From Plantactinospora mayteni (lineage in GTDB: Bacteria; Actinomycetota; Actinomycetes; Mycobacteriales; Micromonosporaceae): 64,000 nucleotides of DNA. A program made the position numbers and the translations under genes. Shown in pieces: positions 25,005 to 27,074 of the stretch; position 1 is the stretch's first letter, and each line of letters begins with the position of its first letter. Below the pieces are notes generated by a model. It was given only the letters and a program-made list of their open reading frames with translations, was not told where the DNA came from and did not search any database. The DNA lies in assembly GCF_016862935.1 (NCBI RefSeq), contig NZ_BONX01000018.1, forward strand, positions 310,001 through 374,000. The letters run 5' to 3'.

Positions 25005-25400
25005 ATGGCCGCGCCTCTCGACCCGGACATGTTCGACCCGGTATGCCCCACCGACCTGATGCCGATCCGCACCGGGGACAAATGGGCAGGCATGATCATC
25101 CGCTGCCTCGAAGGCGGCCCGCGCCGCTTCTCCGAACTCCGGGTGCCGTTGCGCGGCATCACCGCCAAGGTGCTCACCCAGTCGCTGCGGGCGCTGGAGC
25201 GCGACGGCTACGTCACGCGTACCGCCCAGACCCACCCGGTACGCCGCACCGAGTACGCGCTGACCCCGCTCGGCGCCAGCCTGCTCGGACCGCTGGCCGC
25301 GCTCTGCGCCTGGGCGGAGGAGCACTGGGACGAACTGCTCGACGCCCGGGAGGCCGGTACGGCAGCGCTGGCCGGTGGGAAGCCGTTCAGCGCAGGGTGA
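25005..25400 (+). CDS. HxlR-family transcriptional regulator
   Basis: A 131-residue winged-helix protein of the HxlR family. The signature is CPTDLMPIRTGDKWAGMIIRCLEGGPRRFSELR, then ITAKVLTQSLRALERDGYV and RRTEYALTPLG. The cysteine near the N-terminus (PVCPTDL) matches the position of redox-sensing cysteines in relatives such as HypR and YodB. ATG at 25005 has a GTGGAGG site. Divergent from an NAD(P)H-binding oxidoreductase that it probably controls. Confidence 0.92.
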   Translation: MAAPLDPDMFDPVCPTDLMPIRTGDKWAGMIIRCLEGGPRRFSELRVPLRGITAKVLTQSLRALERDGYVTRTAQTHPVRRTEYALTPLGASLLGPLAALCAWAEEHWDELLDAREAGTAALAGGKPFSAG

Positions 25401-25462
25401 GCTGCTCGACTGTCAGAAGGGTGAGCTGCTCGACTGTCAGAGCAGGGTGAGCTGTTCGACGG
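25391..25462. repeat. Three copies of the radical SAM gene's 3' end
   Basis: GGGTGAGCTGCTCGAC occurs at about 25395-25410, 25419-25434 and, with one change, 25445-25460. The last encodes the native C-terminus VEQLTL; the other two lie downstream of the stop at 25437 and would encode VEQLTL again in another frame. Spacing is 24-26 bases. Confidence 0.85.
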
Positions 25463-26984
25463 CGGGTGCCGGGGCGGGTGCCGGCACCTGGCGAGCCTCG
25501 CCCGGCTCGGGGCGGTGCAGGCCGTGCCGGCGGGCCGCCATCCGGACCCGGGCGGTCAGCTCGCGCTGGTATGCCTGCGGCAGGTAGGAGCCCCGGCCGA
25601 AGAGGGTCCGGTAGCGCGGCACCAGGTGCGGGAACTCCCGGGCCAGCCAGCTCGCATACCACTCCCGGGCACCGGGACGCAGGTGCAGCGGCAGCGGGGT
25701 GACGCTCACCGCGCCGGCCGCCGCGATCGCGGCCACCGTCTCCTCGATCGACTCGTCGCCGTCGGTCAGCCCGGGCAGGATCGGGGCCATCAGCACCCCG
25801 ACCGGAAAGCCGGCGTCGGTCAGCCGGCGTACCGCGTCGAGCCGGCGCGCCGGGCTGGGCGTACCCGACTCGACGGACCGCCACATCCGCTCGTCGACGA
25901 AGCCGATCGACATCGAGACGCCGACCCGGGTGACCGTGGCCGCCTCCTGGAGCAGTGGCAGGTCGCGCAGGATCAGGGTGCCCTTGGTCAGGATCGAGAA
26001 CGGGTTGGCGAAGTCGCGCAGCGCCGTCAGGATCGGCGGCATCAGCCGGTAGCGCCCCTCGGCCCGCTGGTAGCAGTCGACGTTGCTGCCCATCGCGATG
26101 TGTTCGCCGGACCACTTCGGCGCCGCCAGCTCGCGGCGGACCAGCTCGCCCGCGTTGACCTTGACGACCACCTTGCTGTCGAAGTCGCGGCCCGCGTCGA
26201 GGTCGAGATAGGTGTGCGTGCCCCGGGCGAAGCAGTTGTGGCTGACCACCCCGTTGGCGACGAAGTCGCCGGTGCCGGTGGTGATGTCGTAGAGCTGGAG
26301 CTGCTGGTCGAGCGGCTCGATCCGGCGGATCCGCAGCGCCGCCCGGCCGCCGAGGATCGTCCCGTCGAGGCCGCCGGCGGGCAGGTCCGCGGGACCGGGC
26401 ATGGCCCGACCGGTGCCGACCAGGCTGTCGGTGATCGCCAGGTAGGGCCGGGGCGGCTCGCCGGGCAGCGCGCCGACGACGTGCTTCCAGCCGCGCGGGG
26501 TGAGGAACCTGTGGTCGCCGCTGGCGGTCAGCTCGGTGCCGTCCGCCAGGACGATCCGGTATGCCGGCTTCACCGTCGACCAGTGCGCCAGCACCTCGGT
26601 CCGGACGTAGCGCCGGTGGTTGCCCTGCGCGACGGTGCCGTAGATCTGGTCGCCGATCCGCAGCTCGGCCAGCGGTCGGGTGCGCCCGTCGGCGAGCAGG
26701 ATCGCCGTGTCGCCGGCCAGGCAGTAGGCGCAGGCGTGGCTGCACCCCCGGTAGGGGTTGATCGTCCACTGGAACGGCACCCGCGAGGCGCCCGGCACCC
26801 GGTTGATGATCGACTTGGCCCGTACCTCGTAGAACGTCATGCCGGCGAAGCCGGGGGTGTCGAAGGTGCGGACGGTCGCGCCGGGCAGCGCCAGCGGCAG
26901 GGGTGGAGCCGCTGGCGCTGCCCCCAAAGGGGTCCCGGTGTCGGGGGGAGCCGACGTCAGGTTTTCCCAGCGCATGGCCATCAT
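25437..26984 (-). CDS. Rv2578c-family radical SAM protein interrupted by a mini-intein
   Basis: A 515-residue precursor. The host protein is a radical SAM enzyme related to spore photoproduct lyase-like Rv2578c proteins. Its cluster motif CxxxCxxC reads C81-SHA-C85-AY, then an in-frame intein of 163 residues (88-250), then C251-FARGTH. The intein begins CLAGDTAILLADG, has GDHRFLTPRGW (block B) and YDITTGTG, and ends VVSHN before Cys251. No homing endonuclease domain is present. Splicing must occur before the 4Fe-4S cluster can form. ATG at 26984 abuts a perfect LexA box, so the gene should be DNA-damage induced. The enzyme's substrate is unknown. After splicing the product is 352 residues. 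Confidence 0.93.
   Translation of the reverse strand: MMAMRWENLTSAPPDTGTPLGAAPAAPPLPLALPGATVRTFDTPGFAGMTFYEVRAKSIINRVPGASRVPFQWTINPYRGCSHACAYCLAGDTAILLADGRTRPLAELRIGDQIYGTVAQGNHRRYVRTEVLAHWSTVKPAYRIVLADGTELTASGDHRFLTPRGWKHVVGALPGEPPRPYLAITDSLVGTGRAMPGPADLPAGGLDGTILGGRAALRIRRIEPLDQQLQLYDITTGTGDFVANGVVSHNCFARGTHTYLDLDAGRDFDSKVVVKVNAGELVRRELAAPKWSGEHIAMGSNVDCYQRAEGRYRLMPPILTALRDFANPFSILTKGTLILRDLPLLQEAATVTRVGVSMSIGFVDERMWRSVESGTPSPARRLDAVRRLTDAGFPVGVLMAPILPGLTDGDESIEETVAAIAAAGAVSVTPLPLHLRPGAREWYASWLAREFPHLVPRYRTLFGRGSYLPQAYQRELTARVRMAARRHGLHRPEPGEARQVPAPAPAPAVEQLTLL
26235..26723 (-). other. Mini-intein coding segment
   Basis: The intein covers 163 codons, from Cys (26721-26723) to Asn (26235-26237). 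Splice residues are all present: N-terminal Cys, block B Thr/His pattern (ASGDHRFLT), penultimate His and final Asn (SHN), and Cys as the first downstream extein residue. It is inserted exactly before the third cysteine of the radical SAM cluster motif. Length is typical for an intein without an endonuclease. Confidence 0.93.
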
Positions 26985-27000
26985 TCGAACATACGTTCGA
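26985..27000 (-). promoter_or_regulatory. LexA (SOS) box
   Basis: TCGAACATACGTTCGA is a perfect match to the Gram-positive/actinobacterial SOS consensus (TCGAAC, four bases, GTTCGA). It directly abuts the ATG at 26984, so the transcript is probably leaderless and LexA would block the start site. In M. tuberculosis, Rv2578c is among the LexA-controlled genes as I remember it. Confidence 0.92.
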
Positions 27001-27074
27001 GGCGCCGCGCAACCCGCCACCCCAGGGCGCGCCGAAAGGGCGGCGATGGTGGGATCGCGGCTACCGGCCGCCAA

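Follow-up and report, generated by a model that had tools for sequence, protein, structure and literature searches.

A predicted SOS-controlled radical SAM protein of the Rv2578c family with a mini-intein in its cluster motif and a putative sliding-clamp-binding tail

A radical SAM gene of Plantactinospora mayteni starts next to a LexA box and carries an intein within its iron-sulfur cluster motif, which raises the question of whether the intein is a second control point, as the original prediction proposed, or a passenger in an SOS gene. We analysed this gene within a 64-kb stretch of DNA (64,000 nucleotides, hereafter the window), together with its relatives. The gene lies on the minus strand (25437..26975, stop included) and encodes a precursor of 512 aa, which matches the NCBIfam model NF038136, 'intein-containing Rv2578c family radical SAM protein', at 827.6 bits (cut-off 700), its parent family NF038135 at 519.7 bits, above cut-off, and PF04055 at 49.3 bits. 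NF038136 models the same whole arrangement, intein included; it has 574 positions, and the window protein, whose intein is a mini-intein of 163 aa, matches it in two stretches. Intein-bearing members of the family do exist in databases, as the original prediction said, and the intein-bearing Rv2578c family is already named by NCBI. The precursor reads MRWENL from ATG 26975, which is more likely to be the start codon than ATG 26984, since the resulting spacing between box and MRW is what relatives conserve. The family has a single match in the genome (9.84 Mb, 123 contigs), and the nearest named relatives of the C-extein, among the matches listed, are those of Plantactinospora endophytica (94%) and P. 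alkalitolerans (88%). NF038135 matched 7/7 genomes of the genus, 312/354 genomes of the taxonomic family (302 above cut-off) and 174/396 genomes of a phylum sample (45 above cut-off). In Streptomyces, a gene of the Rv2578c type is described in an excerpt of the literature as a prophage integration target and is labelled putative SplB.

Reading of the splice residues places the intein exactly within the cluster motif. On the minus strand, the N-extein (84 aa, 26724..26975) contains cluster cysteine 1 (26742-26744) and cysteine 2 (26730-26732), the latter at intein position -3; the intein extends from Cys1 to Asn163 (26235..26723); and the C-extein (25440..26234) begins with Cys+1 (26232-26234), which is cluster cysteine 3. 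The borders read GCSHACAY, then Cys1 (CLAGDTAIL), and VVSHN, then Cys+1 (CFAR). These residues and the scores of NF038136 and of TIGR01445 (intein_Nterm, 34.2 bits for a cut-off of 24.5) bear out the earlier reading of a 163-residue intein between cysteines 2 and 3 of CxxxCxxC. Splicing is predicted to join CSHACAY to C, giving the radical SAM CxxxCxxC, and the three cysteines (C78 and C82 in the N-extein, C248 as cysteine 3) are invariant columns in an alignment of 22 sequences. Class 1 inteins are marked by Cys1, TxxH, His-Asn and Cys+1. The window intein has Cys1, which is its sole cysteine, the penultimate His-Asn (SHN) and Cys+1; its block B is SGDH, with Ser where the pattern TxxH has Thr, a departure from the class 1 pattern. 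The block definitions used here come partly from an excerpt of PMC10663303. A Pfam scan found no LAGLIDADG domain in the window protein. Two more intein-like stretches occur in the genome (G000:C77:16503-16757 and G000:C35:60816-61706), with Pfam Intein_splicing scores of 32.8 and 31.4 bits, below the cut-off of 35.8.

The box next to the gene start, also part of the original prediction, is confirmed as sequence: the palindrome TCGAACGTATGTTCGA (26985..27000, minus strand) ends 9 nt before ATG 26975 and is the only perfect TCGAACN4GTTCGA within the window. There are six such palindromes in the 9.84-Mb genome, against none for the reversed pattern used as a control, and another of the six precedes lexA (TIGR00498, 244.6 bits, cut-off 110.95). 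Yet another (L006:1501-1516) precedes, by 83 nt, a gene for dCTP deaminase (201.2 bits with TIGR02274, cut-off 92.8). Upstream of the window gene and on the same strand, a -35-like TTGCGC (27007..27012) is separated by 18 nt from a -10-like TCGAAT (26983-26988) overlapping the LexA box. The consensus of 61 aligned upstream regions, TtGc.......TCGtACa.gTGTTCGAAT...gGcC followed by ATG, has the same layout, and we infer that it represents a -35 element, an operator, an overlapping -10 element and a leaderless start.

We then compared the box between loci with and without the intein. A first scan covered 97 loci, which were picked for many genes of intein-bearing size, so that their intein share is not a frequency; the box was found with at most one mismatch in 46/65 intein-bearing and 22/32 intein-less loci. 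We enlarged this set by the best 80 of 584 candidates, all of them named loci, and removed identical C-exteins, leaving 168 loci, of which 150 were scorable (MRW-type start) and 18 were left unscored; the box was sought up to 60 nt upstream. With at most two mismatches, it precedes 59/86 intein-less, 15/16 mini-intein and 44/48 full-intein unique loci, that is, 118/150 scorable loci for a shuffle expectation of 0.70, and 110 of the 118 boxes end 7-10 nt before the start. The remaining 32 of the 150 scorable loci, many of them from Streptomyces, have no box within two mismatches. Many Streptomyces copies (within L140-L183, mostly Streptomyces and Streptosporangiaceae-type genera) have a divergent box, GGGAAC-N4-GTTCTA, at roughly 30 nt or more before the start codon, with a purine-rich GAGGAGG-like stretch between box and start, unlike the 7-10 nt spacing elsewhere. 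LexA control of the gene, through an operator in its promoter, is a well supported prediction. This predicted SOS control is a trait of the family, because the box is common to intein-less and intein-bearing loci; the earlier claim of SOS control stands for the radical SAM gene and does not attach to the intein. Older lists of the LexA regulon reportedly include both Rv2578c and PA0069. In Streptomyces venezuelae, a radical SAM gene, vnz_31145, has a LexA ChIP-seq peak and is induced 20-fold by mitomycin (excerpt of PMC9380542). It can be named only as a possible relative, and we do not claim that it belongs to the same family, since its listed box does not occur within two mismatches in any of the 44 loci L140-L183 (best, three mismatches).

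In these counts box and intein appear linked by a plain Fisher test (p = 0.00027 with at most one mismatch, p = 0.0005 with at most two). Among 14 phylogenetically independent pairs there is no such link (median p = 1 with at most one mismatch; p = 0.25, in the opposite direction, with at most two), although this test is weak, since so few pairs differ. We put the Fisher signal down to phylogeny and dropped a coupling of box and intein, with the reservation that a real link could be missed by this comparison.

This result bears on the idea of two-layer control, according to which LexA sets transcription and a thiol-dependent intein sets maturation: a disulfide between Cys(-3) and Cys1 would stall the first splicing step under oxidation, and the oxygen-sensitive enzyme would be withheld until the cell is reducing. 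The two cysteines are close in sequence (CAYC), and an N-extein cysteine that could pair with Cys1, as in redox-gated inteins of the MoaA type, is present at -3. Precedents are available in excerpts of two papers. In the P. abyssi MoaA intein, an N-extein cysteine pairs with Cys1 as a redox trap (PMC10663303); MoaA, like the window protein, is a radical SAM protein with an intein, although it is another enzyme in another host. In M. smegmatis DnaBi1, oxidation of the catalytic cysteine blocks splicing (PMC6195587); DnaBi1 belongs to class 3 and has a second, internal cysteine, whereas the window intein has Cys1 only. The Cys(-3)/Cys1 CxxC pair was found in 65/65 intein-bearing loci of the first set, but the same extein cysteine is kept in 32/32 intein-less loci of that set. 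As a cluster ligand that is present without the intein too, it gives no evidence of selection for a switch. A later, larger count of these cysteines is uninformative, the loci having been picked by a pattern that demands them. Splicing that depends on redox state is thus possible, a reasonable idea with precedents, for which we found nothing specific in the window sequence. With an intein-SOS link that is not robust and an intein whose presence changes often, we regard two-layer control as improbable.

The same arrangement bears on the claim of the original prediction that a functional cluster has to await splicing. This is plausible as far as function is concerned, but it is not established for the cluster itself: the precursor keeps the spacing C-SHA-C-AY-C, with the intein Cys1 completing CxxxCxxC in place of cysteine 3. 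With Cys1 in that position, binding of a metal or cluster by the unspliced protein is conceivable in principle. Carried further, the precursor might bind iron or a cluster via C-x3-C-x2-C1 and so mask the splicing nucleophile, with iron-sulfur status setting the rate of maturation. The third position of the precursor's CSHACAYC is Cys1 in all 65 intein-bearing loci of the first set, as this would require, but the spacing is inevitable for any Cys1/Cys+1 intein at this site and so is no evidence of selection; moreover, the residues that follow cysteine 3 are displaced in the precursor, and the structure model of the precursor (pLDDT 58.0) is too poor to judge. Gating of splicing by the cluster is, to our mind, highly improbable.

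The distribution of the intein fits a different history. The insertion site is identical in 65/65 inteins of the first locus set, and the inteins fall into two size classes, of 143-171 and 273-379 aa; among 177 loci, duplicates included, 91 have no intein, 65 a long one and 21 a short one. A LAGLIDADG_3 domain is present in one long-intein relative (L047, 33.8 bits, cut-off 22.5), while in another (L060) no LAGLIDADG domain was found at E 0.001. The C-extein tree, built from 176 loci, requires a minimum of 27 changes between intein and no intein, and of 8 between mini-intein and other states. Within the genus, all seven genomes carry a mini-intein (163, 163, 171, 166, 163, 166 and 163 aa), and dN/dS over 15 pairs from six genus loci is 0.144-0.473 in the intein, compared with 0.187-0.581 in the N-extein and 0.114-0.286 in the C-extein, which indicates that the intein is under purifying selection. 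Both the constant presence in the genus and this selection would suit two-layer control; purifying selection shows no benefit of the intein, however, since it is expected anyway if the enzyme is needed and must be spliced, and it speaks for splicing activity only indirectly. Carriage of the intein by phages was considered and rejected: a tblastn search of 50,697 phage records gave 14 records, every one below 60% identity and annotated as helicase, terminase, hypothetical protein or gp2, so that no copy close to the window intein was found among those phage records. The single site, the minimum of 27 changes and the LAGLIDADG-bearing relative are more readily explained by a homing element than by a control point that evolved as such, and the intein looks like an old mobile passenger with repeated loss of the endonuclease, kept by the need to splice.

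We next considered the other end of the protein. The C-extein ends in QLTLL (25440..25454, minus strand), a predicted binding motif for the sliding clamp DnaN. Comparison of the tails of 165 unique proteins revealed Pro/Ala-rich linkers that vary in sequence up to a conserved end: the entropy per column falls from 2.48-3.64 bits in the 20 residues before it to 0.96-1.98 bits in the final five, and QL.LL or QL.LF occurs in 120/165 tails (last 30 residues) against a shuffle mean of 0.275. The review PMC11139829, in excerpt, defines the clamp motif as Qphix[L/M][F/L] or Qphix[L/M]x[F/L], with the consensus QL(S/D)LF. By this definition 132/165 tails fit, 23 are near and 10 have no motif, while only 7/2372 internal windows fit. 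In the model of an intein-less homologue described below, the block of last residues has a pLDDT of 47-56, in agreement with the disordered-segment criterion of clamp-binding proteins. We infer from these tails that the end peptide would bind DnaN. The QLxLL end might instead be a tag for protein turnover or serve some other contact, the enzyme not being at the clamp; a C-terminal degron would likewise be placed right at the chain end, where 117 of the 120 strict motifs are found. Against this, nine tails with an internal motif still fit the clamp pattern (for example QLDLF, QLSLF, QLTLF, QMSLDL and QLSLDL), and proteobacterial relatives end in QLSLF, QLTLF and QLRLF, among others, near the consensus QL(S/D)LF of the excerpted review (PMC11139829). 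We consider a turnover tag or other contact rather unlikely and retain clamp binding as the preferred reading of the tail. At the gene end itself (window positions 25396-25455), EQLTLL and the stop are followed by two more near-copies of the same sequence of about 23 nt, so that the motif is encoded again past the stop, in another frame.

Pol IV and Pol V are SOS-induced. Both have a short clamp-binding peptide (excerpt of PMC11139829), as predicted for the window protein, with the difference that they are polymerases and the window protein is a radical SAM enzyme; SOS induction of clamp-binding polymerases is partly covered in the excerpt of PMC3765255. Among the matches listed from the openly licensed literature, none connects a radical SAM or SPL protein with clamp binding, and the conserved motif in the Rv2578c family, with its predicted binding, is new here.

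We assessed the fold of the enzyme from an AlphaFold2 model of L112, the intein-less homologue of Phytohabitans maris (pLDDT 71.6, pTM 0.71). The top Foldseek match is spore photoproduct lyase (SPL; 4fhg, E 2.5e-6, TM 0.50, 16% identity); SPL entries make up four of the top six rows, with lipoyl synthase and PFL-activating enzyme near. A profile search of PDB sequences gave no match at E 0.01. The model supports a radical SAM barrel, and it is compatible with a repair reaction like that of SPL without proving it, the fold match being moderate. SPL, the nearest solved fold, is characterised by that fold together with a conserved hydrogen-donor cysteine. In the window family the Cys of NxDCYQxxE, not necessarily its counterpart, is not invariant: among 159 proteins that match NxDXYQxxE, 113 have C before YQ, 29 have P, 11 have V and 6 have some other residue, so this Cys is not an invariant catalytic residue. 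SplB-like radical SAM photolyases have already been linked with the SOS response (excerpt of PMC3765255), and they are only possible members of the window family.

Finally, we examined relatives outside the Actinomycetota, in the PA0069 family (NF033668). The homology of the two families is visible in both directions: for L184, one of these relatives, NF038135 gives 240.7 bits, short of the 430 that it requires, and NF033668 gives 480.8 bits (cut-off 360), while the window protein scores 220.7 bits with NF033668, below that cut-off. Fifteen non-actinobacterial records were taken from a plasmid/chromid collection, and Gemmatirosa, which has no motif, was left out; the 14 remaining records are few, and consist of 13 alphaproteobacterial ones, from seven genera and not independent, and one from Aeromonas. 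GTTC-N7-GTTC was found within 450 nt before the cluster motif in 11/13 alphaproteobacterial records, and was absent from Pseudorhodobacter turbinis and Methylobacterium bullatum in the same search; the single Aeromonas record carries CTGTATATATAAACAG. Shuffle expectations over the 14 records are 0.11 and 0.035, respectively. We take GTTC-N7-GTTC to be the alphaproteobacterial and CTGTATATATAAACAG the gammaproteobacterial LexA operator. All 14 tails end in Qxx[L/M][F/L]; 12 fit the clamp definition and the other two are QGELF and QYSLF. The PA0069 family thus resembles the window family in its homologous core, its clamp-like tail and its upstream LexA-type box, and differs from it in having no intein in the 14 records and boxes of the alpha- and gammaproteobacterial kinds. 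In one Sphingomonas record (L187:2742-3765), dnaE, encoding DNA polymerase III alpha, is found some 420 nt past the PA0069-type gene and on the opposite strand. Different LexA operators together with a retained clamp motif are the strongest indication that the enzyme takes part in repairing or tolerating DNA damage at the replication fork.

With moderate confidence, then, we read the window gene as encoding a member of the Rv2578c/PA0069 group, a radical SAM enzyme that is induced in the SOS response, tethered to the clamp and active on DNA at or near replication forks, with an intein that is the remnant of a mobile element. In such a scheme, LexA bound to the promoter-overlapping operator just upstream of the start would repress the gene, and DNA damage would release LexA. 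The class 1 mini-intein would splice itself out and join cysteine 3, as Cys+1, to cysteines 1 and 2, so that the native cluster loop would exist only in the spliced protein. The mature enzyme would consist of a radical SAM core, with spore photoproduct lyase as its nearest solved fold, and of a disordered tail whose end peptide would hold the enzyme on DnaN, the sliding clamp. The intein would be retained because the host must splice it; oxidation of Cys(-3) and Cys1 may delay splicing, and nothing indicates that this was selected as a control. The combination of intein and SOS box is most simply that of a mobile element which landed in the conserved motif of an SOS gene, and reading it as an evolved double switch would first call for a splicing test.

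For the group as a whole, we give about an even chance to a wider proposal: that the Rv2578c/PA0069 proteins are a core SOS enzyme, a radical SAM domain tethered to the sliding clamp for DNA repair or lesion tolerance at the replisome, whose LexA control has been kept in Actinomycetota, Alphaproteobacteria and Gammaproteobacteria despite different operators, and whose cluster motif has received a homing intein in many Actinomycetota. What merits a test is the proposed SOS radical SAM enzyme tethered to the clamp. More useful than the intein is an uncharacterised enzyme family, present in two phyla, with apparent SOS control through different operators and a predicted clamp-binding tail. If confirmed, radical SAM chemistry would join the damage toolkit of the replisome, with concrete partners and substrates to be tested.
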